A stretch of DNA of 64,000 nucleotides from Bryobacteraceae bacterium (GTDB lineage Bacteria > Acidobacteriota > Terriglobia > Bryobacterales > Bryobacteraceae). Both the position numbers and the translations under genes were made by a program. Positions within the stretch are counted from its first letter, which is position 1, and each line of letters opens with the position of its first letter. Where the stretch lies: contig JANWVY010000002.1 of assembly GCA_025056455.1 (NCBI GenBank), forward strand, positions 1-64,000. The letters are read 5' to 3'. Under the pieces are notes generated by a model. It did not search any database. It saw only the letters and a program-made list of their open reading frames with translations, and was not told where the DNA came from. Positions 18,393 through 39,763 of this stretch are shown here, piece by piece.

Positions 18393-19156
18393 TCGATATC
18401 CACAGCCATATTTTGTATGGCCTGGATGATGGACCGAAAACGCTCGAAGAGAGCTTGGCCATGCTCCGGCTGGCCGCAGCCAACGGCACCACCGACATCG
18501 TCGCGACTCCCCACGCAAACCTCCAGTTCGCCTTCCAGCCGGATTTGATCAACCAGCGCTTAGAAGAACTCCAGAGAGTTTGCAACGGCTCGCCCCGAAT
18601 ATACTCGGGCTGCGACTTTCATCTCACCTGGGATAATTTGCAAGACGCCCTCGCCCACCCCAACAAATACACCATCAATCATCACAATTATTTACTCGTG
18701 GAATTTTCAGACATGTGGATTTTCCATAACACGGAGGAAATCTTCGCCTCGCTGCGAAGTCGAGGGATCATACCCGTAATCACGCATCCCGAGCGAAACA
18801 GCTTGCTGCAACGGAGGCTTCCGTCGCTGACCCGCTGGATCGAACAAGGGGCACTGATTCAAGTCACGGCGCAATCCTATCTCGGACGCTTCGGCCGGTC
18901 GGCGCAGAAATTTAGCCGCCAGCTGATGCAACTCGGGTTGGTCCATTTCGTAGCCAGCGACGCCCATGATACACAACACCGGCCCCCCGACTTAGGCGAG
19001 GCCTTCACCTGGGTCGCCAAACACTACGGCCAACCTACCGCGCAGAGACTTTTTGTGGACAACCCGAAGGCAGCGCTGGAGGGTCGGCCGCTGCCGCCAG
19101 TGACCCAGAGTTCCCTACCCCAGCCTCGCCGGTGGTTTGAATTCTGGAAACGCTAG
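18389..19156 (+). CDS. PHP-family tyrosine phosphatase, CpsB/YwqE type, probable CTG start
   Basis: Metal-dependent protein tyrosine phosphatase of the PHP fold, usually acting on the BY-kinase that controls capsule or exopolysaccharide synthesis. Visible motifs: IDIHSHIL (first HxH), GLDDGP, ATPH, THPERN and the last metal ligands ASDAHD. A TTG start at 18413 would cut off the HxH metal ligands. The family starts M-I-D-I-H-S-H, which points to CTG at 18389 (or ATC at 18392), with GAGGAG at 18375-18380 ideally spaced. The CTG overlaps the previous stop (CTGA). About 255 residues. No BY-kinase gene is in the window. Confidence 0.85.
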   Translation: MIDIHSHILYGLDDGPKTLEESLAMLRLAAANGTTDIVATPHANLQFAFQPDLINQRLEELQRVCNGSPRIYSGCDFHLTWDNLQDALAHPNKYTINHHNYLLVEFSDMWIFHNTEEIFASLRSRGIIPVITHPERNSLLQRRLPSLTRWIEQGALIQVTAQSYLGRFGRSAQKFSRQLMQLGLVHFVASDAHDTQHRPPDLGEAFTWVAKHYGQPTAQRLFVDNPKAALEGRPLPPVTQSSLPQPRRWFEFWKR

Positions 19157-21886: not shown

Positions 21887-22858
21887 ATGAGCATCGCGGT
21901 CCAGGCTGCAGCGCCGAATCTGAAACTTGTCGATCTGCGCGAAATTAGCGGCAGCAGCTTGGTTCCGTTGCTCGAAGAAGAGATTGACTGGTGGCGCCGG
22001 ACACTGTTCTGGGACATGCGGTCTTCCGCGGAACTCGTTGTCAAATTCGTCAATCTCGGTTCCCTCCAGGGCGGCGCCCTGCTTCACCAAGAGCGGGTCG
22101 TCGGCTACACCTATTATGTTCTTGAGGGCAGCAAGGGACTCATCGGCGATGTCTACATGTTGCGCGAGTTTCGCGATATTTTCTGGGAAAATCGGCTAAT
22201 TCAGCACGCACTCGATGATCTCCGCGCCAAGCATGGCATTCGTCGAGTGGAATCGCAACTCCTGCTGATTGAAGCACCACTGGCTCACGTCATGCCGCGA
22301 GCCGAGCATGTGCGCGCCTACCATCGCATGTTCTTAATGCGGAGCATCAAACCGCTCGGGCTATCGCCGGTGGAGGTAGGTCCTAGCCTTTTGTTTGAGC
22401 CTTGGCGGGAGGAATGCATGGACGAGGCCGCACGCCTCATTGCGGAAAGCTATGCTGGCCATGTTGACAGTGAGATTAATGACCAGTATCAAAGCCCGCA
22501 TGGCGCGCGAAAATTCTTGGACACGATGATTCACTATCCCGGTTGCGGAGAATTTTGCCAGCCTGCCTCCTGGGTCGCTTTTCAGAAAGACACAGGTTTG
22601 GTGTGCGGTCTGGTTCTAGCCAGCGTGGTGGCTCCAGGCGTGGGACACATCACTCAAGTTTGTGTCGCTAAGGCTTGGCGCGGCATGGCCATTGGATACG
22701 AGCTACTGCGGCGTGCAATGGCCTCGTTTGACGATCTTGGCTGCCACCGGGTCGGGCTTACCGTGACAGCATCCAATCATGAGGCGGTCCGGTTGTATCA
22801 GAGGATGGGGTTCGTTAACATTCGCGACTTCGCGGCTCATGTTTGGACTGGGCTGTAG
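21887..22858 (+). CDS. GNAT-family N-acetyltransferase (two GNAT halves)
   Basis: 323 residues. The C-terminal half has a clear GNAT acetyl-CoA site: ITQVCVAKAWRGMAIGYELLRRAM, then GLTVTASNHEAVRLYQRMGF. The N-terminal half (VVGYTYYVLEGSKGLIGDVYML) looks like a second, weaker GNAT fold. The substrate is unknown. It starts 6 bp after the cytochrome gene, but this is probably operon packing. Convergent with recJ. Confidence 0.75.
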   Translation: MSIAVQAAAPNLKLVDLREISGSSLVPLLEEEIDWWRRTLFWDMRSSAELVVKFVNLGSLQGGALLHQERVVGYTYYVLEGSKGLIGDVYMLREFRDIFWENRLIQHALDDLRAKHGIRRVESQLLLIEAPLAHVMPRAEHVRAYHRMFLMRSIKPLGLSPVEVGPSLLFEPWREECMDEAARLIAESYAGHVDSEINDQYQSPHGARKFLDTMIHYPGCGEFCQPASWVAFQKDTGLVCGLVLASVVAPGVGHITQVCVAKAWRGMAIGYELLRRAMASFDDLGCHRVGLTVTASNHEAVRLYQRMGFVNIRDFAAHVWTGL

Positions 22859-24682: not shown

Positions 24683-25177
24683 TCAGTTGCGGGAGAAGTA
24701 CATGCTGTCGTCGTCGCTTTCCTCTTCCGTTTCGCCGTCGCTCACCGCCATATCGATCTGGTCGACGATCTCGAGCAGTTCCTCGTACCATTCAGTGCGC
24801 ATGTCAAACAGGTAGAAGCGGTTGTGGTATTCGAAAGTAAGCTCGACCGAGCAGGTGAAACCGGCAAATGGTTTGAGCTCCTTGAGCCGGCGTTCGAGGG
24901 CCCGCCGTTCTTGGGGGCTCAGATCGGTCTCTGGCAACCGCTCGAGCGCATCATCAATCACACTAGGATCGAGCTCGCCGTGACTGAGCAGCATCATTTT
25001 GACGCCGAGCTGAAGGGCACAGTCAATGAACTTGCGAAAATCGGGCTCCCGGCGGACATCCCATAAAACAAGCCCTTGACGGCGAAAGTCAGCGACCATG
25101 CCCTGAAAAACGGCGATGTTCCGGCTGGTGAGATAGGCGTGCATCTCTTGTTTCAAGGTATCGAGGTTCGGCTTCAT
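24683..25177 (-). CDS. Conserved-looking protein of unknown function
   Basis: 164 residues, soluble, no signal or membrane helix. It opens with a helical part (LDTLKQEMHAYLTSRNIAVFQGM), has a mid-section VLWDVRREPDFRKFIDCALQLGVKMMLLSH, and ends in a strongly acidic tail (DGETEEESDDD). I do not recognise the family. The ATG overlaps the aldehyde dehydrogenase stop (ATGA) and its stop lies 4 bp from recJ, so it is translated as part of that operon and is surely a real gene. Confidence 0.7.
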   Translation of the reverse strand: MKPNLDTLKQEMHAYLTSRNIAVFQGMVADFRRQGLVLWDVRREPDFRKFIDCALQLGVKMMLLSHGELDPSVIDDALERLPETDLSPQERRALERRLKELKPFAGFTCSVELTFEYHNRFYLFDMRTEWYEELLEIVDQIDMAVSDGETEEESDDDSMYFSRN

Positions 25178-27027
25178 GAACGTTGTGCGAGCACTAGAAT
25201 ATCGTGGCCCGCGGCTGCATCGCGAGCCGAAGGCGTGATGATCGTGCGTGGCCCAATAAAGATCTTGCGCTTCTCCTGGAGGGCCTGGCGCACGTCCGCC
25301 TCACAAACAAAGTCAGCAATGGGAGGCGGAGCTGGAGCAACTGCCGGAGCATTTGTGGGGTTGCGTTGCGGCGAGCATTCTCCTTGCGGGGAAGCCTGCG
25401 CGGAGCTGGGCTCGCAACCACAGGCGGAGGCGCTGACAGCTGGCTCGGCTACAGAGCCAGCAGTTCGCCGGGTGGATAAGAAGCGATCGACGACCGAAGC
25501 GGCAAGCGAAGTTGCGGAGTTTGAGCCGGCGCTCTCCGCTCTCACCGGCCCGGCAACGGCCGTTCGGGGCGCAAGGGCAATTCCCCGCTGGGTGAGATAT
25601 TTTTCCACGGCCGCCACCACTTGGCCCGGGTCGAGAGGACTCTGCGTACCCGCCGGCTGCTCAAATGCCTCGGCCGCGGTCCGCACCTCCCAAGCAATGC
25701 GTTTGATGTTGAACAAATGTTGTGGGCCGACATTATCAGAGGTGATGTTGCCAGCAATCGCACCGCAGCCCAAGGTCATGGAAGGTTGCAAGTTGGTGGT
25801 GATGCCGGTAGAACCTTGTGGCGCCGGCGTATTCACCAGGACGCGAAATGCTGGCATACGCCGCGCGTAAGCCATAATGCGCTCCTGGTTTTGGGAGTGG
25901 ATCACGCAGGTATGCCCTAAACCGCCAAACTTCAAAATTGCTTCGCAAGCCTCAAGCGCCGCTGCAAAATCCCGAACGAAGTATACCGAGAGCACAGGCG
26001 ACAACTTCTCGGCCGAAAGCGGGTGCGCTTTGCCGATACCGTGGATTTCCGCCACGAGAATCGACGTCCCCTCAGGCACTGTAAAACCGGCCATCTTGGC
26101 GATGGTTTGCGGCGGCTGGCCCACGCAGTCCGGATTCACCAGCAACCGATCGTTCAGCAAGACCTTGGCCAGCGCCTGGCTCTGCTCTTCCGTGCAAAGA
26201 TGGGCTCGGTGAGCCTTAAGCTCTGCGAGGATACGGTCTCGTAGAGCCAGAGGAGCAACAATGGTCTGTTCGCTCGAACACACCGTACCGTAGTCGAACG
26301 ATTTGCCTTCGACAACCTTCGCCACGGCGGCGCGAAGCTCAGCGGTTTCATCGATCAAAACCGGAACGTTACCTGGTCCTACGCCAAAGGCGGGCTTGCC
26401 ACTCGAATAAGCGGCTCGGACGATCCCCGCCCCGCCCGTGGAAAGAATCACGCCCGTACGGGGATGCCGCATGAGCGCCTGCGTTCCTTCCAAAGTGGCG
26501 TTTTGAATGCACTGGATCAGGCCCGAGGGCGCACCTGCGCTTAAGGCCGCCCGCAACAAAACATCTACCGTGGCGCAGGTACATCGCTTGGCCCTCGGAT
26601 GGGGGCTCAGGACAATGGCGTTGCCAGCTTTGAGCGAGATGATTGTCTTGTAGATGGCGGTTGAGGTGGGATTGGTTGTTGGCAGAATCGCAGCAACCAC
26701 ACCCACGGGCTCAGCGATTTCCACCATCTTCTCATCTCTGAGTTCGCGAATCACACCGATGGTTTTCATGCCGCGAATCCGCCGCACCAACAAATCGGCG
26801 TTGAGCAGATTTTTCGCGACTTTTCCCGCCACGTTGCCATAACCCGTTTCCTCCACCGCCAGCTCTGCTAAGCGGCGGGCTTCGCTCCGGGCGGCGGCGG
26901 CCATGGCCTCGACGACCTGATCTACTTGTTGCTGGTTGAAGTTTCGGTATTCCTGAAAAGCCTGGTAGGCGCTATCGACCTTGGTACGAACCTCTTGGAT
27001 GGAAAGCAGGTCATGATCTTGCAGCAT
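25174..27027 (-). CDS. Microcompartment-type CoA-acylating aldehyde dehydrogenase with long C-terminal extension
   Basis: 617 residues. Residues 1-455 are a PduP/EutE-like aldehyde dehydrogenase (ILPTTNPTSTAIYK, VILSTGGAGIVRAAYSSGKP, GVGPGNVPV, catalytic Cys250 in SFDYGTVCSSEQ, FGGLGHTCVIHS) that turns an aldehyde into acyl-CoA with NAD and CoA. Residues 456-617 are extra: amphipathic helices at about 466-483 (DPGQVVAAVEKYLTQRGI) and 506-521 (SLAASVVDRFLSTRR) look like encapsulation peptides, then a Pro/Ala/Ser linker with four Cys (including ACGC at 535-538) and a final segment FVCEADVRQALQEKRKIFI / TIITPSARDAA. It follows the shell gene after 49 bp, which supports a microcompartment role. 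The aldehyde is unknown. Confidence 0.88.
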   Translation of the reverse strand: MLQDHDLLSIQEVRTKVDSAYQAFQEYRNFNQQQVDQVVEAMAAAARSEARRLAELAVEETGYGNVAGKVAKNLLNADLLVRRIRGMKTIGVIRELRDEKMVEIAEPVGVVAAILPTTNPTSTAIYKTIISLKAGNAIVLSPHPRAKRCTCATVDVLLRAALSAGAPSGLIQCIQNATLEGTQALMRHPRTGVILSTGGAGIVRAAYSSGKPAFGVGPGNVPVLIDETAELRAAVAKVVEGKSFDYGTVCSSEQTIVAPLALRDRILAELKAHRAHLCTEEQSQALAKVLLNDRLLVNPDCVGQPPQTIAKMAGFTVPEGTSILVAEIHGIGKAHPLSAEKLSPVLSVYFVRDFAAALEACEAILKFGGLGHTCVIHSQNQERIMAYARRMPAFRVLVNTPAPQGSTGITTNLQPSMTLGCGAIAGNITSDNVGPQHLFNIKRIAWEVRTAAEAFEQPAGTQSPLDPGQVVAAVEKYLTQRGIALAPRTAVAGPVRAESAGSNSATSLAASVVDRFLSTRRTAGSVAEPAVSASACGCEPSSAQASPQGECSPQRNPTNAPAVAPAPPPIADFVCEADVRQALQEKRKIFIGPRTIITPSARDAAAGHDILVLAQRS

Positions 27028-28692: not shown

Positions 28693-29424
28693 ATGTCGGC
28701 GGGATGGTGGATCCCGGACCTGTTGACTGGGGGGGCGGCAGTTGCCGCGGCGGGCCTCTTTTATGCGGTGCGATACCCCGGCGCAAGCTGGCTCGCTCCT
28801 TCGATCACAAGCGGCTCTAAGCGGCGCAAGGCAATCGCCATCACTTTTGATGACGGACCCAGCGAATCCACACCCGACTTGTTGCAACTCCTCGAGGCGC
28901 ATCAGGCGCGATGCACCTTCTTTCAATGTGGCTACCACGTCGAGCGGTTACCGGATATCGCAAAACAGGTTCTAGCGGCTGGTCATGAAATCGGCAATCA
29001 CACTTATTCTCATGCCGCGCTTTATTTCCGGCCGGCGCAATTCATCGCTGATGAGATTTATCTCGCTCAAGAAGCCATTTCACGCGTCTGCGGCGTTGTT
29101 CCGAAGTTTTTCCGGCCGCCTTATGGCGCGCGCTGGTTTGGATTAAGGCGTGCCCTCACCCACTTTGAACTGAAGTGCGTCATGTGGTCAGGTCTCGGCT
29201 TGGATTGGAAACTGAACGCCGAGGGAATCTACCAGCGCCTTCGGAAATGCATCCGCCCTGGCGCGATTTTCTGCTTGCATGATGGCCGAGAGCTTGCCGA
29301 GCGCCCGGATATCCGCCCTACGATCGAAGCCGTCCGGCGCTTGCTGCCCGAGTTGCGGGAACAGGGATTTGAACTCATTCCAGTCAGCGACTTACTATGT
29401 CAGACGACATCACCCAGCGCGTGA
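28693..29424 (+). CDS. NodB-type polysaccharide deacetylase
   Basis: 243 residues with an N-terminal membrane helix or uncleaved signal (LTGGAAVAAAGLFYAV). The carbohydrate esterase 4 motifs are complete: TFDDGP (Asp53 catalytic base, Asp54 metal), HEIGNHTYSH (His103, His107), FFRPPYGAR, and a final CLHDG. It would remove N-acetyl groups from a GlcNAc-type glycan at the outer face of the membrane. A good ribosome site (GAGGGGGAAG) precedes the ATG. Its 3' end overlaps the ACP gene by 28 bp, pointing to coupled expression. Confidence 0.88.
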   Translation: MSAGWWIPDLLTGGAAVAAAGLFYAVRYPGASWLAPSITSGSKRRKAIAITFDDGPSESTPDLLQLLEAHQARCTFFQCGYHVERLPDIAKQVLAAGHEIGNHTYSHAALYFRPAQFIADEIYLAQEAISRVCGVVPKFFRPPYGARWFGLRRALTHFELKCVMWSGLGLDWKLNAEGIYQRLRKCIRPGAIFCLHDGRELAERPDIRPTIEAVRRLLPELREQGFELIPVSDLLCQTTSPSA

Positions 29425-29651
29425 TCCAGGTCATTGCAAAAACTCAGCACTTGTCGCCGGAGCAAATCCGACCTACCAGCTCGTTTGAAGAACTCAACAT
29501 TGACTCGCTGGACGGCATCAATATCGTTTTCAATCTGGAGAACGAATTTGACGTGTCAATCCCTGACGAGGCCGCCAAATCGATCCGGAGCGTAGCCGAT
29601 GTGGTTGAAGGCATCCGAAGACTGCTGGCGGAGAAGGCATCCGGCGCATGA
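29397..29651 (+). CDS. Acyl carrier protein (dedicated, NodF-like context)
   Basis: 84 residues, acidic helical bundle with the 4'-phosphopantetheine attachment site NIDSLDGI (Ser37) where the usual fatty-acid ACP has DSLD; the second helix is FNLENEFDVSIPDEAA. It overlaps the end of the deacetylase gene and the start of the ketosynthase gene (ATGA), so it is probably a specialised carrier for that synthase rather than the housekeeping AcpP, which normally sits with fabD/fabG/fabF. Confidence 0.9.
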   Translation: MSDDITQRVIQVIAKTQHLSPEQIRPTSSFEELNIDSLDGINIVFNLENEFDVSIPDEAAKSIRSVADVVEGIRRLLAEKASGA

Positions 29652-30853
29652 ACCGCCGCGTGGTGATAACCGGATTAGGCGTCATCTCAGCGTGCGGTAA
29701 AAACGCCGCCGAATTTTGGGATTCCGTTCGCCAAGGTCGAGATGGCGCTTCTAAACTGGAGGAATTCCCCGGCCTGCGGTTTTCAAATGGCGGGCGCGTT
29801 CGTGGCTACCAGCCCCAGCTTTACTTTACGGAGCGCGAGCTCGATCACTTCGATCTTGCCGCGCAGTTTGGGGTGCTGGCAGCTCGCCAGGCGATTTCCT
29901 GCTCGGGACTTGAATTCACCTCCGCGCTGCGCGAGTCCACGGGCGTGATTACCGGCTGCTGCGTAGGCGGGAAATTGACCGAAGACAGCGCCTTCCGCGA
30001 GTTATATGAGGAGAAGAAGACGCGCTTCAATCCGATGATTGTCCCGCGCACCATGGCCAATGCCGGCGCGAGCGCGATTAGTATGGAGCACGGCTTTCAG
30101 GGAGCCTGTCTTACTTTTTCCACGGCCTGCTCCTCGTCCAACCACGCCCTCGCTCAGGCTTTCTGGATGGTGCGGCAGGGCAGTCTGGAAGTCGCGATTG
30201 CAGGTGGCCACGAAGCGCCCTTTAGCCTTGGCCATTTAAAGGCCTGGGAGGCGCTGCGCGTTGTTTCGCCCGATGTCTGCCGGCCATTTTGCAAGGAGCG
30301 CCGGGGGATGATTTTGGGCGAAGGCGGGGCCATGTTTGTGCTGGAACCGTTGGAGCATGCCCGCGCCCGGGGCGCAACCATCTATGCAGAGATCGTAGGC
30401 GCTGGAATGAACGCCGATGCCCATCACCTCACCCAGCCATCGGCTGACGGCGCCGCCCGCGCCATACGTCTGGCGCTCCAAGATGCTGGTGTTGCTCCCG
30501 AAGCCATCGGCTACGCCAACGCCCACGGCACTGGAACCCAAGCCAACGACGCCACCGAGGCGCAAGCTCTGCGTATGGTTTTTGGCCGGCACTGCGATCG
30601 CCTTGCGGTCAGCTCGACAAAGTCGGTGCACGGCCACGCCCTAGGAGCGGCAGGTGCACTTGAGGCTGCAGCCACAGTCTTGGGTTTACACCACCGGCTG
30701 TTGCCACCCACAGCGCATTTCGGTTCGCCCGATCCCGACTGCCCGCTGGACGTCATCGCAAACCAGGCTCGAGTGGCAGACCCTGAGTACGCCATCTCGA
30801 ATTCGTTCGCTTTTGGCGGACTCAACGCGGTGATCGTTTTTCGCCGCTGGTAA
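29648..30853 (+). CDS. Beta-ketoacyl-ACP synthase, FabF/NodE type
   Basis: 401 residues. The condensing-enzyme triad is intact: Cys161 in FSTACSSSNHA, His293 in NAHGTGT and His330 in KSVHGHALGAAGA, with Lys325. It elongates acyl-ACP by two carbons from malonyl-ACP. It differs from housekeeping FabF at several places (GRVRGYQPQ region, VITGCCVGG), and lies in one overlapping unit with an ACP and a deacetylase, so it probably builds a special acyl chain. Confidence 0.9.
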   Translation: MNRRVVITGLGVISACGKNAAEFWDSVRQGRDGASKLEEFPGLRFSNGGRVRGYQPQLYFTERELDHFDLAAQFGVLAARQAISCSGLEFTSALRESTGVITGCCVGGKLTEDSAFRELYEEKKTRFNPMIVPRTMANAGASAISMEHGFQGACLTFSTACSSSNHALAQAFWMVRQGSLEVAIAGGHEAPFSLGHLKAWEALRVVSPDVCRPFCKERRGMILGEGGAMFVLEPLEHARARGATIYAEIVGAGMNADAHHLTQPSADGAARAIRLALQDAGVAPEAIGYANAHGTGTQANDATEAQALRMVFGRHCDRLAVSSTKSVHGHALGAAGALEAAATVLGLHHRLLPPTAHFGSPDPDCPLDVIANQARVADPEYAISNSFAFGGLNAVIVFRRW

Positions 30854-30947: not shown

Positions 30948-31023
30948 TGGTGGCCAGGGACGGAATCGAACCGCCGACGCCAGCCTTTTCAGGGCTGCGC
31001 TCTACCAACTGAGCTACCTGGCC
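30948..31023 (-). tRNA. tRNA-Phe (GAA)
   Basis: Minus-strand cloverleaf of 76 nt: acceptor GGCCAGG pairs with CCTGGCC, D arm GCTC-AGTTGGTA-GAGC, anticodon stem CAGCC/GGCTG with loop CTGAAAA (anticodon GAA), T arm GGCGG-TTCGATT-CCGTC, discriminator A and an encoded CCA at 30948-30950. Confidence 0.97.
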
Positions 31024-33991: not shown

Positions 33992-35698
33992 CTAAGCCTC
34001 CAGCGCGAGATCAATGGTTTTCCGCGCCGGATCGAGCTTCGTGATTCTAAAAGTTCTTACCTCGCCGGGCCGAAGCTTCGGAGGACCTTCTTGCTTGGGC
34101 TCTGGCGCCCCTTGCTTCCAACGCGCCGCGAGCATGGCGGTGAGGGAAGCAACGTCGGCTTTGCCGGTTTGGGAAGGAGGCGGGGCAGCAGCCGGCTCGT
34201 TTTTTGGGAACCGGTAAACGCCGGTCACTCCTTCAGCCAGCTCCACTTTGGCCATAACCGCGTCCACGGACACCACACGTCCGCTGATCGTTTCTCCGAC
34301 CTGATGGCTTGCTAAAAACTCATCCAGTACGGTCGGCTCCAGTTGTTTCATGCCCAAACGGATGCGGCGTTTTTGTTTGTCGACCTCTAGCACCAGAGCG
34401 CGCACCTTTTGCCCAGGGGAGAGAACTTCTTTGGGGTGCTCCAGCCGCCGCTCGCGCGTGATATCAGCAATGTGAATTAAACCTTCAAGTCCTCCGCCAA
34501 GATCGACGAAGGCGCCGAATTTGGCGATATTCGTGATGGGCACATCTTCGACCAAGCTTCCGACGGGGAAGCGTTTGTCCGCTTCTTCCCACGGATCTCC
34601 GAGGGCCTCTTTCAAACCAAGCGAAATGCGTTTTTCGGCCGGCTTGATATCAAGCACCACCACCTCTACGGCATCGCCGACTTGGACCACCTCCGAAGGT
34701 TTTTTGATGCGGCGGCCCCAGGCAAGCGAAGACAAATGCACGAGGCCATCGACACCCGGGCTAATTTCCACGAAGGCGCCGAAGTCGGCCAAGCGCACCA
34801 CCTTGCCCCTCACGCGATCGCCGACCTTCAGGTTTTGAGTCGTGACAGTCCAAGGGTCAGGCGTGAGCTGCTTCATGCCAAGCGAGATGCGCTTGGATTC
34901 TGGATCCACTTTGAGGACTTTGACTTCCACCGAATCCCCAACAGAAACCAGGTCCCCAGGCTTGGCTGCGCGGTTCCAAGACATGTCGGCCACATGGAGC
35001 AGACCGTCGATGCCGCCGAGATCGACAAACGCGCCGTACTCGGTGACTGTGCGCACAGTGCCGTGAAGCACAGCGCCCTCGCGGATGCTGGCAAAGGCTC
35101 GCTCTTTTGCGAGCGCAGCTTCTTCTTCTAACAGCGAGCGGCGGTCCACCACAACATCTTCGGTGGCGGTGTCCAACTTGGTAATGAGGCAGCGGATCTC
35201 CTGCCCCACCAAGCTCTCCATCTCCATCGGATCGCGGGCGCCGCTGCGCGAGGCGGGCAGAAAAGCCCGGACGCCAACATCAACCCGTAAACCACCCTTC
35301 ACGACTTCCACCACGCGACCCGCGACGGGCGTTTTTTCTTCAAACGCCTTTTCAAGTTGGGACCAGTCGAAGACGCGTTTGGCGCGCAGCATCGACAGCT
35401 CATAGTAGCCTTCTTCGTTGCGGCCAGTGATTACCACCGGCAGCAGGTCACCCGGCTTGATTTCACTCGCAGCGGTCAGCTCTGGCAAGCGGCTGCGGTC
35501 GATTACGCCCTCCATTTTCCGGCCAATGTCGACCAGAATTTGTTCCTGGCTCACCTTGATGACGGTGCCTTGAAGCGTTTCACCTTGGCCTTCGTTGGAA
35601 TGCTCGTGTTCAAACTGCAAGAGGATGTCGCCGAAGGTCGACTCAGTGGCTTGAGCCTGCTCCTGGGGCGATGGATCCGTTGGATTTGCGAGACTCAT
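33992..35698 (-). CDS. rpsA: 30S ribosomal protein S1
   Basis: 568 residues with six S1/OB RNA-binding units: TLQGTVIKVSQEQILVDIG, VAGRVVEVVKGGLRVDVG, LHGTVRTVTEYGAFVDLGG, VRGKVVRLADFGAFVEI, VEDVPITNIAKFGAFVDLGG, and a less regular last one (ISGRVVSVDAVMAKVELAEG). S1 brings mRNA to the 30S subunit. A Pro/Ala-rich linker near 495-530 and a short C-terminal piece replace part of the final repeat. The start lies only 40 bp from the divergent histidine kinase gene. Confidence 0.93.
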   Translation of the reverse strand: MSLANPTDPSPQEQAQATESTFGDILLQFEHEHSNEGQGETLQGTVIKVSQEQILVDIGRKMEGVIDRSRLPELTAASEIKPGDLLPVVITGRNEEGYYELSMLRAKRVFDWSQLEKAFEEKTPVAGRVVEVVKGGLRVDVGVRAFLPASRSGARDPMEMESLVGQEIRCLITKLDTATEDVVVDRRSLLEEEAALAKERAFASIREGAVLHGTVRTVTEYGAFVDLGGIDGLLHVADMSWNRAAKPGDLVSVGDSVEVKVLKVDPESKRISLGMKQLTPDPWTVTTQNLKVGDRVRGKVVRLADFGAFVEISPGVDGLVHLSSLAWGRRIKKPSEVVQVGDAVEVVVLDIKPAEKRISLGLKEALGDPWEEADKRFPVGSLVEDVPITNIAKFGAFVDLGGGLEGLIHIADITRERRLEHPKEVLSPGQKVRALVLEVDKQKRRIRLGMKQLEPTVLDEFLASHQVGETISGRVVSVDAVMAKVELAEGVTGVYRFPKNEPAAAPPPSQTGKADVASLTAMLAARWKQGAPEPKQEGPPKLRPGEVRTFRITKLDPARKTIDLALEA

Positions 35699-35738
35699 GG
35701 GGAAAGTAAACCTTCATTTTGGCACAATCAGGGTGGAG

Positions 35739-36992
35739 ATGTCGGAAAGCGCAAAGCCTTGGGTGAGGCCCCAGGACTTTGTGTGGATCCTGCTTTTTGG
35801 CGGGCTCGCGCTTGCAAGTCCAGACCGCTCTGCTTACGAGATTGAACTGCTGTTGGCCCTGGCCGCGTTGCAGCTGGCCGAACCACGTCTTCGTTTTTTT
35901 GAAACCGACCGGGGAAAGATTTTGCTGGTCTTGCTGAAGCTGGTTGCCGGTTTCCTGCTGATTGGCTTCACCGGTGGAATCACCAGCAGCTACCATCTGA
36001 TCTTGCTCTTGCCAGTGGTTTCAGCGGCAACCTCCTTTGGGCTGGTGGGTACGATGCTTTGTACGGCGCTGGCCTGCGCCAGCTATCTGATTTTTCTTCA
36101 TCCGGTGTTTCTTGATCCGCAAAGATGGGAGCTGACGCGCGAGGGAGTGAGTGTGGTCAGCTTGCGGGTGATGTTTTTACCGGTGGTCGCGTTTTTGACC
36201 AATGAGCTGGCCCGCGCCAACCGCGAAGCCGCTAAGCGTTATCAGGCTGCGGCGGCAGAACTGGCTGCCGCCAATCAAAGCCTCCAGCAGGCAACCGAGG
36301 CCATGCGTCGCTCGGAGCGTCTAGCGGCGCTCGGACAGATGAGCGCAGGACTGGCTCACGAGCTTCGAAACCCGCTCGGCACGGTCAAGGCTTCGGCGGA
36401 ATTGCTGGCGCAGAAGCTGGCAACGGCGGATGAGCTGAGCCGGGAACTAGCTGGCTTCATCACGACCGAAGTCGACCGCGCCAACGCCCTCGTGACCAAA
36501 TTCCTCGATTTCGCCCGGCCGTTGCGGCTGCAGCGCAGCCTAGCAGAGTTGAGTAACGCTCTCGATCAAGCAGTGGAGAGGTTCAAACGGCACGTTCCGC
36601 CCTTCCCAGTAACTGTCTATAAAAATTACTCTCCCGACATCCCTCCCTTCGCCATGGATGTGCAACTTGTCGAGCAGGTGGTCTATAACCTGCTCGTGAA
36701 CGCTGCGGAGGCTAGCCCCCCAGGCGCCGCTGTAACCCTGAAAACCCGTCCCGTAAACAACTCTGCCGAAATTTCGGTGATCGACCGTGGAAGCGGCATC
36801 GACCCGGCGCACCTCGAAGCGATTTTTAACCCGTTCTTTACGACAAAGCGCCAGGGCATTGGCATGGGACTACCCATCGTTGCGAAGATAGTGGACGAGC
36901 ACGGGGGAAAGATTTCGCTAGAAAGTCAACTCGGTGTGGGCAGCACGTTTCGGGTTCTGCTTCCCTTGGATGCTCCGCAAACGAGTCCATGA
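35739..36992 (+). CDS. Membrane sensor histidine kinase (NtrB/AtoS-like)
   Basis: About 417 residues from the ATG at 35739 (GGTGGAG before it). Five or six membrane helices fill residues 12-155, then a coiled-coil linker, the phospho-acceptor His207 in AGLAHELRNPLG, the N box VVYNLLVNAAEA, and ATP-lid motifs DRGSGID, FFTTKRQGIGMGL. No PAS or large periplasmic loop, so the signal is probably sensed within the membrane. Its stop overlaps the start of the response regulator by 4 bp; the two are a cognate pair. Confidence 0.9.
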   Translation: MSESAKPWVRPQDFVWILLFGGLALASPDRSAYEIELLLALAALQLAEPRLRFFETDRGKILLVLLKLVAGFLLIGFTGGITSSYHLILLLPVVSAATSFGLVGTMLCTALACASYLIFLHPVFLDPQRWELTREGVSVVSLRVMFLPVVAFLTNELARANREAAKRYQAAAAELAAANQSLQQATEAMRRSERLAALGQMSAGLAHELRNPLGTVKASAELLAQKLATADELSRELAGFITTEVDRANALVTKFLDFARPLRLQRSLAELSNALDQAVERFKRHVPPFPVTVYKNYSPDIPPFAMDVQLVEQVVYNLLVNAAEASPPGAAVTLKTRPVNNSAEISVIDRGSGIDPAHLEAIFNPFFTTKRQGIGMGLPIVAKIVDEHGGKISLESQLGVGSTFRVLLPLDAPQTSP

Positions 36993-38362
36993 AAACGCGC
37001 ATCCTGGTGGTTGAGGACGAAGAAAAGCTCCGCCGAGTCCTGGAGCTTCATTTTCAATCCTCGGGCTACGAGGTGGATCTAGCGGGCTCGGCCGAGGAGG
37101 CGCTAGCGCTCTCTGACCGCGCCCACGTCGTGTTAACGGACTTGAAGCTTCCCGGTGCAAGTGGCCAAGAACTGTTGCTTTCGCTCCAGCGCCAAAACCC
37201 TTCACTTCCCGTCATCGTGATGACCGCCTTTGGCACGGTGGAAACAGCCGTTGAGGCGATGAAAAACGGCGCCTACGATTTCGTGCTGAAGCCGTTTTCG
37301 CTTGACCATCTCCGCCGGGTGATCGAAAAGGCGCTCGAGGTCAGCACCTTGCGCGAGGAGAACCGGAAACTGAAAGAGGAGCTCGGTCAGCGGTATGAGT
37401 TCGACAATCTGGTGGGCTCCTCGCGCGCCATGCAGGAAATCTTCGCAGTTGTGGCTCGTGTGGCTCCCACGCGGGCGACGGTCCTGCTGTGCGGGGAAAG
37501 CGGCGTCGGCAAAGACATGATTGCCCGCGCAATTCACCATCACTCCCCCCGCCGCGACCGTCCTTTTGTGAAGATTAACTGCACGGCAATTCCCGAGAAC
37601 CTACTCGAAAGCGAGCTGTTTGGCTATGAGAAAGGCGCTTTCACCGGCGCGCACACAAACAAGCCTGGCAAATTCGAACAAGCCGATTCCGGCACCGTGT
37701 TTCTCGACGAAATTGGCGATGTTCCTCCGTCGATCCAGGTCAAGCTTTTGCGCGTCCTCCAAGAGCGGGAGTTTGAAAGGCTCGGTGGCAACCGAACGCT
37801 CAAAATTGACGTGCGTGTGATTGCCGCCACCAACGTCGACCTTCGCGAGGCGCTTGAGCAAGGCACGTTTCGAGAAGACCTCTACTACCGTTTGAATGTC
37901 GTCCCCATCAATATTCCTCCCTTGCGCGAGCGCAAGGAAGATATTCCCGCCTTGGCGCGGCATTTCCTGCGCAAACACGCTGCTGATCTCGGCAGCGCAG
38001 TGGAGGAGATTTCCGAGCAGGCCATGGCCAAGCTCATGGATTATCACTGGCCGGGCAATGTACGGGAGCTGGAAAACGTGATCGAGCGGAGTCTTGTGCT
38101 GTGCTCGCGGACGAAGCTGGAAGCAGGCGACATCCGCTTGGATACCGTTCCGCGTTCCAAAGCGGCGGTCAGTAGTTCTTTCCTGCCAGAAGGCATGTCG
38201 CTGGAAGAGTACGAACAATCTTTGATTCGCGAGGCTTTGCGTCGCAGCGGGGGAAACAAGAGCCAAGCCGCGCGGCTGCTTGGACTGACACGGAATGCCC
38301 TGCGCTACAGGCTCTCGCAAATGGGACTTGAACAGGACAAAGACTCGGCCGAAAAGGATTAG
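36989..38362 (+). CDS. Sigma54-dependent response regulator (NtrC family)
   Basis: 457 residues: receiver domain with Asp51 (VLTDLKLPG), AAA+ domain with Walker A GESGVGKD (169-176), the sigma54-contact loop GAFTGA (216-221), Walker B VFLDEIG (Asp240, Glu241), the arginine-finger stretch LYYRLNVVP, and a C-terminal Fis-type helix-turn-helix (NKSQAARLLGLTRNALRYRL). All functional motifs are intact, so it should activate sigma54 promoters after phosphorylation by the kinase in front of it. Its target genes are not shown by the window. Confidence 0.95.
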   Translation: MKTRILVVEDEEKLRRVLELHFQSSGYEVDLAGSAEEALALSDRAHVVLTDLKLPGASGQELLLSLQRQNPSLPVIVMTAFGTVETAVEAMKNGAYDFVLKPFSLDHLRRVIEKALEVSTLREENRKLKEELGQRYEFDNLVGSSRAMQEIFAVVARVAPTRATVLLCGESGVGKDMIARAIHHHSPRRDRPFVKINCTAIPENLLESELFGYEKGAFTGAHTNKPGKFEQADSGTVFLDEIGDVPPSIQVKLLRVLQEREFERLGGNRTLKIDVRVIAATNVDLREALEQGTFREDLYYRLNVVPINIPPLRERKEDIPALARHFLRKHAADLGSAVEEISEQAMAKLMDYHWPGNVRELENVIERSLVLCSRTKLEAGDIRLDTVPRSKAAVSSSFLPEGMSLEEYEQSLIREALRRSGGNKSQAARLLGLTRNALRYRLSQMGLEQDKDSAEKD

Positions 38363-38379
38363 GCTGGCATGGATTTCGC

Positions 38380-38398
38380 GCTGGCTAGGAAGGCCAGC
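38380..38398. terminator. Candidate bidirectional terminator hairpin
   Basis: GCTGGC (38380-38385) and GCCAGC (38393-38398) form a 6-bp stem with a 7-nt loop in the 54-bp gap between two convergent genes. There is no T tract on either side, so it is only a weak candidate. Confidence 0.3.
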
Positions 38399-38416
38399 AC
38401 CAGAACCGCGCGAACC

Positions 38417-39763
38417 TCAACCCGTAGCCGCATAGCGCTTGAGCTTGGCATACAAGGTGGAGCGATCGATGCCAAGCAAGCGCGCGGTCTTGGAATGGTT
38501 TCCGCCGCACTGCCGGAGCGTCGTGAGAATATGCTGTTTTTCCAGTTCTTTGAGGCTCTGTCCGCAACCCGGCCGCAGGGCCAACTCGGGGCCGAAAACA
38601 TGGGCCAAAGCGCTCTCATCCAGCATTTGGCCAGGTGAGAGGATCAAGGCTCGTTCAAGGACATTCTTGAGCTCTCGCAAGTTCCCCGGCCAGGGGTAGC
38701 GAGTAAGAAGTTGGAGGGCGGCTGAGCTCAGCTCCGGAGTGGTGGAGCGGTTCAAATCGGCAGACAGTTGACGCAGGAAGAAGTGTACCCAGCTCGGAAT
38801 GTCAGCTTGCCGTTCCCGTAAGGGAGGCACTTCGAGGCAGCAGCGAGCCAATTGCAGCCGCAGCTCAGCCAGAAAAGCGCCCTGGCGGACTTGCTCCTCG
38901 AGTCGCTCGCCGGTGCTGGCAATCACCCGGCAGTCGACTGCAACCGGTGCCCCTCCCCCGAGGCGCACAATTTCTTTTTTTTGGATGGCGCACAGCAGCT
39001 TGGCCTGAACGCTCATGGCCACCTGTTCAATCCCATCGAGAAACAGCGTACCGCCCTCAGCAAGTTCGAACACTCCCTTTTTGCGCGGAGCCGGCCAAGC
39101 GAAGGCGTCTTCTTCAGAACCAAAAAGCTCGCTTTCCAGAGAACTGGCCGGCGCGGCGCAAGAGACACGGACAAACGGCCGGTGCCTTCGCGGGCTGCGC
39201 TGGTGAATGGCCCGCGCCAGAAACTCTTTGCCCGTAGCCTCTTCTCCCACGATGAGCACCGGGGCATCGCTGAAGGCTGCCAGTTCCACGAATTCGTGCA
39301 TGCGCTTACTCGCCGGGCTGTCGCCGATCCGCTCCGCAAGGGGGAGGATCGTCTGTATGAATTCACGCAGTTGGGTGATTTCACGCTGCGCCCTGGTGTA
39401 GACCACACATCGGGAGAGGGCTTGCAGTAAGGACTGCGGGTTTACCGGCTCCAGGAGAATGTCGCTGGCTCCCGGCTTGAATCCCTCTCTTAGAGAGCCT
39501 TCAGAAACGGGGTCTGCAATCAAAATGATCGATATCTCCGGCTCGTTCCGCCGGACCTTCGCCAGCCCCTCCATGGCCCGCACCGCGAGCTTCGCGTCCG
39601 CAAGAATCACATCGAATCGCCGCCGCCGCAGAAGCGTTTGCGCTTGTTCGATTGTGGAAGCCGTTTCGACAAAGTAGTCCCTCTGTTGAAGCCATCGGAC
39701 AAGAGATTCACCTCGGTCAACGATCCCGTTGAGAATCAAAACGTTTCCACTGTCACCGCACAT
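38417..39763 (-). CDS. Degenerate NtrC-like regulator lacking the sigma54-contact motif
   Basis: 448 residues with the NtrC layout: receiver-like domain, AAA+ domain, Fis-type helix-turn-helix (NHSKTARLLGIDRSTLYAKL). The receiver keeps an Asp (ILADAKL) but lacks the acidic pair near the N-terminus. In the AAA+ domain Walker A is present (GEEATGKE 173-180), but GAFTGA is replaced by DAFAWP (219-224) and the Walker B Glu by Gly (FLDGI). It should therefore not be able to remodel sigma54 holoenzyme and may act as a DNA-binding repressor or modulator. Divergent (211 bp) from the multiheme cytochrome gene. Confidence 0.85.
   Translation of the reverse strand: MCGDSGNVLILNGIVDRGESLVRWLQQRDYFVETASTIEQAQTLLRRRRFDVILADAKLAVRAMEGLAKVRRNEPEISIILIADPVSEGSLREGFKPGASDILLEPVNPQSLLQALSRCVVYTRAQREITQLREFIQTILPLAERIGDSPASKRMHEFVELAAFSDAPVLIVGEEATGKEFLARAIHQRSPRRHRPFVRVSCAAPASSLESELFGSEEDAFAWPAPRKKGVFELAEGGTLFLDGIEQVAMSVQAKLLCAIQKKEIVRLGGGAPVAVDCRVIASTGERLEEQVRQGAFLAELRLQLARCCLEVPPLRERQADIPSWVHFFLRQLSADLNRSTTPELSSAALQLLTRYPWPGNLRELKNVLERALILSPGQMLDESALAHVFGPELALRPGCGQSLKELEKQHILTTLRQCGGNHSKTARLLGIDRSTLYAKLKRYAATG

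Follow-up and report, generated by a model that had tools for sequence, protein, structure and literature searches.

A Bryobacteraceae bacterium of the phylum Acidobacteriota carries, in one overlapping unit, genes for a deacetylase with a NodB domain, a dedicated acyl carrier protein (ACP) and a beta-ketoacyl-ACP synthase (ketosynthase) of the NodE type, which raises the question of what such a unit makes outside the rhizobia. The window, that is, the whole stretch of 64,000 nucleotides that was analysed (assembly GCA_025056455.1, contig JANWVY010000002.1), contains the three genes at 28693-30853. The open reading frames of the window confirmed both these coordinates and the overlaps given in the original prediction, which were 28 bp between deacetylase and ACP and 4 bp between ACP and ketosynthase. 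Our answer, held tentatively, is that the unit is part of a route to an N-acylated amino-sugar envelope lipid, with the deacetylase and the ACP-ketosynthase pair acting in a joint pathway. As had been supposed from the first reading of the DNA, the data favour an amino-sugar or envelope lipid over a Nod factor. The unit may thereby point to an amino-sugar lipid, as yet uncharacterised, of a phylum common in soil.

Sequence classes of the three proteins

The ketosynthase matched PF00109 and PF02801 and retained an intact Cys-His-His triad (C161, H293 and H330). Its best matches in plasmid records were from Xanthomonas sacchari (51%), Paracoccus (48-49%) and rhizobia (43-46%). Two of the three rhizobial ketosynthases inspected lie next to an ACP gene in the vicinity of nodABC and nodD; the third (NXC14), whose 5-kb flanks showed no nod gene, was named NodE from its 81% identity to the first. 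In a tree of 63 ketosynthases, a 100/98 branch held NodE, the plasmid matches and the sampled acidobacterial copies together, and FabF, FabB and another ketosynthase of the window genome stood on its opposite side. A second tree was extended with other phyla and with nine of 13 further ketosynthase matches from a Rhizobium, two alphaproteobacteria and an acidobacterium. It kept the NodE class whole at 100/98, save for one 10%-filled row inside it, and the rerun after this row was dropped still gave 100/98. The sister group of NodE was formed by three Paracoccaceae/Roseobacteraceae ketosynthases (97/90, and 97/87 after removal of the row). Furthermore, approximately unbiased tests rejected NodE inside FabF, with p values of 3.2e-5 (four FabF rows) and 0.0012 (eight FabF rows). 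A looser constraint, under which NodE joins FabF and FabB but which also permits NodE as the first branch of the class, was not rejected (p 0.25).

Seven residues (M136, A139, W200, C211, N300, A388 and A394) were identical in 52 class rows including NodE and different in three FabF rows, in an alignment from which four rows were left out. Two of these seven were present in E. coli FabB, and two in the ketosynthase on contig C11 of the window genome. By sequence, the window ketosynthase belongs to the NodE class, apart from the sampled FabF and FabB rows; the trees covered neither aryl polyene nor type II polyketide ketosynthases. The NodE-type assignment is now firmer than the first sequence reading could show. 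In addition, the pair is not the only set of its kind in the cell, because a separate FabF with an adjacent ACP is encoded on contig C23 of the window genome, which removes a doubt raised with the original prediction, that the pair might be the sole fatty-acid set. This housekeeping set has the same order, ACP and then ketosynthase, with about 40% identity, whereas the window ketosynthase lies in a separate clade and locus and differs at the diagnostic residues. A ketosynthase 55% identical to that of the window was also observed in Rhizobium multihospitium (L166 / L219, G151). It grouped with Bryobacteraceae and Pyrinomonadaceae rows and not with NodE; its ACP is divergently transcribed, and the next gene had no Pfam match.

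The ACP matched PF00550 at 40.9 bits and has the DSL serine. Aligned to AcpP, to NodF and to other ACPs of its class, it lacked one residue that the housekeeping AcpP has, and NodF likewise is without that residue. Pairwise BLASTP gave no direct match between the ACP and NodF; with composition adjustment and filtering off there was still none, and the relation was seen only at class level. The best non-NodF matches of NodF from S. mexicanum were ACPs of the window's class. Of the NodF likeness first proposed, this class relation is supported, and a direct match was not found.

The deacetylase matched PF01522 at 112.6 bits and contained the motifs TFDDG, HTYSH, RPPYG, DW and LHDG. The CE4 motifs MT1-MT5 and the Asp-His-His metal site were complete, which places the protein in CE4. 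D53, D54, H103, H107, R141, D171, W172, H196 and D197 were invariant among 19 aligned rows, with 31 invariant columns in total. The structure model, with a predicted local distance difference test score (pLDDT) of 88.6 and a predicted template modelling score (pTM) of 0.85, showed an N-terminal helix at about residues 7-27. It resembled CE4 folds such as that of the deacetylase Bc1960 (TM-score 0.76). Judged from these motifs, the DSL serine and the Cys-His-His triad, the window enzymes look functional. The NodB label given at the outset holds at the level of the domain, but NodB proper was ruled out: the protein scored 125.8 bits against the NodB equivalog TIGR04243, whose curated cut-off is 240, and the 19 acidobacterial deacetylases and three rhizobial NodB proteins formed separate groups in the tree, each at 100/99.

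Conservation and genomic partners

Conservation was surveyed in 151 genomes, namely that of the window and those of 150 relatives within the class. Deacetylase matches were found in 127 of the 151 genomes at E <= 1e-15. Adjacency was counted from the listed deacetylase rows with E values of up to 2.8e-25 (123 genomes) and from those listed ketosynthase rows that reached 46% identity, of which two were partial; the other listed ketosynthase rows, at 44% identity or lower, were taken as housekeeping FabF. A ketosynthase of the window type was listed at 90 places in 89 genomes. Conservation of the trio in relatives, which had been proposed as a check, was borne out in that the deacetylase lay 227-1069 bp upstream on the same strand at 54 of these 90 places. 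The distance was 227-334 bp at 52 places, which leaves room for one ACP, and 787 and 1069 bp at two. In the window's genus, the listed rows placed the trio together in nine of 12 genomes. Beyond the family, the trio was also found with or without an intervening response regulator gene (G098, G147 and the named locus L206). Among the matches listed, the deacetylase was present in 85 of the 89 genomes with the ketosynthase and in 38 of the 62 without it (Fisher p 1.5e-7, a value that ignores kinship).

Thirty close loci, the window's included, were compared with flanks of 1.5 kb; the main counts for these loci and for the named loci below rest on profile searches. An ACP was present in 22, and 21 of these also had the ketosynthase within the flanks. 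The ACP profile began 9-39 nt before the deacetylase stop in all 22 ACP-bearing loci, and the overlap of the two frames is conserved more than chance would give. A conserved protein of about 323 aa was also noted at L087:6616-7584 and 12 other loci (cluster C7); one member was scanned and had no Pfam or NCBIfam match. It often lies between argC-argB-GNAT-type genes and the MLE, deacetylase, ACP and ketosynthase genes.

The partners of the pair were surveyed in the best 80 of at least 578 named loci. The dedicated ACP adjoined the ketosynthase in 78 of the 80, as in the window. The deacetylase was upstream of the pair in 22, all of them Acidobacteriota, and an LpxD-family N-acyltransferase was directly upstream in 22, all of them Pseudomonadota. 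The LpxD assignment was made by curated cut-off (279.5 bits against 242.5). In all four alphaproteobacterial genomes tested (L187, L189, L205 and L213, with completeness not stated), the pair-linked LpxD was the sole protein over that cut-off. The LpxD-linked loci were noted among the named alphaproteobacterial loci L168, L179 and L182-L213, and the LpxD-family gene is often preceded by one for an L,D-transpeptidase-like protein (cluster D5, 15 loci).

Other partners were less frequent among the 80. A lipid A-type acyltransferase came directly after the pair in two loci, a GT28 protein followed in two, and a type III polyketide synthase-like gene was nearby in four. The type III polyketide synthase loci with the pair suggest a phenolic-lipid-like pathway; some of them add an FAD monooxygenase (also in Novosphingobium), YceI or TPR proteins. 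In one family of the class (f6), the deacetylase is beside a glycosyltransferase resembling GT28 and diglucosyl-diacylglycerol synthase, the genes overlapping in L072, lying 45 bp apart in L067 and being divergent in L065. A relative of this glycosyltransferase in L110 scored best as diglucosyl-diacylglycerol synthase, with 183.9 bits at a cut-off of 500. Moreover, deacetylase, response regulator, ACP, ketosynthase and GT28-like glycosyltransferase genes form one row in L206 and L068.

A joint pathway weighed against its alternatives

In the favoured route, the CE4 enzyme, anchored in the membrane and facing the cytoplasm, would deacetylate a GlcNAc-type sugar linked to a lipid or a nucleotide. 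The NodE-class ketosynthase would elongate a chain on the dedicated ACP, with the reduction steps borrowed from the housekeeping synthase, and the product acyl-ACP would stay apart from the common acyl pool. An acyltransferase encoded elsewhere may then move the chain to the freed amine or to the same glycolipid. A special acyl-ACP is proposed by analogy, because NodF and NodE do likewise. In the usual naming, NodF is the carrier protein and NodE the synthase, and NodE is known for its part in legume host range. A passage of PMC5080398, in which the two labels are reversed (NodE as carrier protein, NodF as synthase), describes that Nod factors lose polyunsaturated and >C18 acyl chains upon nodE deletion.

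The AcpXL-LpxXL system is a precedent for a dedicated ACP and ketosynthases that provide a single acyl chain of a glucosamine lipid. According to a passage of PMC11901934, the cluster acpXL-fabZXL-fabF2XL-fabF1XL-adhlA2XL-lpxXL provides very-long-chain lipid A acyl groups in rhizobia and Agrobacterium. The window unit is like this cluster in having a dedicated ACP and a ketosynthase. What the cluster has beyond the window unit is a dehydratase, a second ketosynthase, a dehydrogenase and an acyltransferase, and it contains no CE4 deacetylase, the comparison being by gene content and not by clade. No neighbouring FabZ or LpxXL-type acyltransferase was found among the 20 window proteins that were Pfam-scanned (17.9-41.7 kb, with the rest of the window outside the scan), which sets the unit apart from the AcpXL-LpxXL system.

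The side of the membrane on which the deacetylase acts is important for this route. By the positive-inside rule, positive charges flank the cytoplasmic side of membrane helices. K/R was commoner after the membrane helix than before it in 47 of the 55 scored deacetylases, where starts were taken from the longest frame, three short rows and one without TFDD were left out, and some named loci were the same contigs as unnamed loci within the 55. This pattern suggests a cytoplasmic catalytic domain behind the N-terminal membrane helix. An active site facing the cytoplasm would be a place where NodB-type chemistry could meet acyl-ACP chemistry. The enzyme might instead be an ordinary extracytoplasmic deacetylase of peptidoglycan or exopolysaccharide, with the pair making a separate envelope fatty acid. 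Its nearest solved relatives, by sequence and by fold, do include peptidoglycan deacetylases, but the charge pattern and the position of the gene beside a lipid-type glycosyltransferase in some relatives argue against this alternative, which we regard as improbable.

Several observations weigh against the joint pathway. For the charge pattern, the Priestia homologue has RR before the helix yet KK after it and gave no clean control. No deacetylase was found within 3 kb upstream at 36 of the 90 listed ketosynthase places; in one of these (G041) it lies farther upstream, at 3.6 kb, and a few are at contig ends, such as L084 and L103. Scattering of the genes in relatives, which had been named as a refutation of the original prediction, thus applies in part, to these places and not to the 54 where the genes are together. 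The pair also occurs amid arginine-type genes and an aminotransferase/HAD group, which are off the amino-sugar theme, and in type III polyketide synthase clusters (L101, L102, L111, L113 and L099, also L127 and L155). It is not tied to amino sugars everywhere, because some of the places without a deacetylase are such clusters. Further, the GT28 linkage belongs to other families of the class and not to the window's, and the fourth LpxD-linked ketosynthase (L179) groups elsewhere in the tree, so that the LpxD-linked ones are not one clade. The scanned window proteins included no glycosyltransferase, and no acyltransferase except an unlinked GNAT protein 5.8 kb before the deacetylase.

Candidates for the missing enzymes were looked for elsewhere in the window genome. 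Of its two LpxD genes, the one on C26 adjoins an LpxA-like gene and the one on C23 stands apart. At least two LpxD matches occurred in 79 of the 89 ketosynthase-bearing genomes and in 46 of the 62 others (p 0.028); in genomes at least 90% complete, the counts were 70 of 75 and 41 of 47 (p 0.33), which again does not favour the joint pathway. Copy number gave no clear support for the second LpxD as the missing acyltransferase, and it was not taken as evidence. GT28-like genes of the window genome were a 32% partial match at C22:613510, next to an aldo/keto reductase gene, and on C26 a match that was weaker. They were rejected as parts of the system for being weak, remote and unlinked.

The main rival to the joint pathway is independent use of the acyl pair. 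The pair would then be a self-contained acyl-supply module that joins various pathways, and the deacetylase operon would offer only a promoter and translational coupling, the substrates being unrelated. This would agree with the varied company of the pair (arginine-type genes, type III polyketide synthase, response regulators, GT28 clusters, LpxD and lipid A acyltransferases) and with the 38 listed genomes that have the deacetylase without this ketosynthase. However, the deacetylase and the pair are also together outside the family (G098, G147 and L206), the frame overlap is conserved, and the ketosynthase is almost restricted to deacetylase-bearing genomes. Independent use is a real possibility, to which we give less credence than to the joint pathway.

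A lipo-chitooligosaccharide (Nod-factor-like) signal would also bring a NodE-class ketosynthase and a NodB-domain deacetylase into one unit. As in rhizobial nodF-nodE with nodB-nodA, an ACP gene in the window immediately precedes that of a ketosynthase from the NodE clade, a NodB-domain deacetylase is the partner, and the seven class residues are those of NodE. Unlike in the rhizobial nod genes, the deacetylase is of another CE4 clade, outside that of NodB, and lies inside the same unit as the pair; no NodA or NodC was seen beside the trio, and the ACP has no direct NodF match. NodA (PF02474) was not found in the window genome, a weak negative as no control genome gave a match, and NodC was not searched for. 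Together with the lack of a glycosyltransferase among the scanned proteins, this makes a Nod factor very unlikely as the product. In the literature searched, mostly titles and the beginnings of abstracts, the combination of the trio was not described, and neither NodE/NodF in Acidobacteriota nor glucosaminyl phosphatidylglycerol together with a polysaccharide deacetylase and a glycosyltransferase gave a match.

The favoured amino-sugar lipid has a parallel in the LpxD-linked pair of Rhodobacterales and relatives, which shares the ketosynthase class, an ACP immediately upstream and a partner family acting on glucosamine. Unlike in the window, this partner is the N-acyltransferase LpxD and not a deacetylase. 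Three of the four tree-sampled LpxD-linked ketosynthases were nearer to NodE than to the window's ketosynthase. NodE now falls within a broad bacterial class that extends over Acidobacteriota, Rhodobacterales, Bacteroidota and other groups, and its closest relatives among the sampled rows are LpxD-linked ketosynthases; therefore, the origin of Nod factor acylation becomes testable. A wider proposal, which at present seems rather unlikely to us, is that NodF-NodE is one branch of an old and widespread ACP-ketosynthase class that first provided N-acylated glucosamine lipids with their special acyl chains. Alphaproteobacteria would pair it with their only LpxD. In Bryobacteraceae its partner would be a CE4 deacetylase that faces the cytoplasm, and the two would act in a lipid A-like route, not yet described, of deacetylation and re-acylation. 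Rhizobia would have taken such a pair from envelope lipid synthesis for the Nod factor.

Gene order and surroundings of the unit

The features of the locus are given in Table 1. The gene for an enolase-superfamily protein, on which the first reading made no remark, is separated from the deacetylase gene by 12 bp, so that the unit has four successive genes on the + strand with this one in front. From this spacing, it is probably the first gene of the unit and co-transcribed with the others. The nearest solved structure of its product was galactonate dehydratase (E 2.5e-40), and the gene was present in 18 of the 30 close loci, the window's locus counted. It also lies 5' of the deacetylase where the ACP-ketosynthase pair is absent (L045-L047, L049, L050 and L056). 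No pathway role could be argued for this gene, which also precedes pair-less deacetylases. Promoter- and terminator-like sites were at the level of shuffled sequence (1 against a mean of 1.6, and 7 against a mean of 5.2).

Table 1. Positions of the features of the locus in the window, with the basis of each assignment
Feature	Length	Position	Strand	Basis
Enolase-superfamily protein (mandelate racemase / sugar-acid dehydratase-like)	411 aa	27445..28680	+	PF13378 and PF02746
CE4 (NodB-domain) N-deacetylase	243 aa	28693..29424	+	PF01522, motifs and model
Dedicated ACP	84 aa	29397..29651	+	PF00550, Ser in ..NIDSLDG..
NodE-class beta-ketoacyl-ACP synthase (ketosynthase)	401 aa	29648..30853	+	PF00109/PF02801, trees
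tRNA-Phe (GAA), downstream boundary, outside the system		30948..31023	-	ARAGORN, Rfam RF00005

Other genes of the window were noted as well. A CpsB/CapC capsule-type protein is encoded at 18413-19153. The GNAT-family protein (21887-22858, + strand, 323 aa) had its Pfam matches at residues 168-312 and none in the first 167. An acylating aldehyde dehydrogenase-like protein (25174-27027, - strand) scored 554 bits to TIGR02518, below the cut-off; the alignment ends at residue 454, and about 160 additional C-terminal residues lie beyond it. The gene at 24683-25177, which overlaps it, had no Pfam or NCBIfam match. At 35697-39763, a histidine kinase adjoins a sigma-54 response regulator, with a second sigma-54 activator on the opposite strand. 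The window genome (G000) comprises 4.98 Mb in 29 contigs and is 98.9% complete. Four genomes of the same genus (G001-G004) are 8.7-11 Mb, and that of the window is about half their size.

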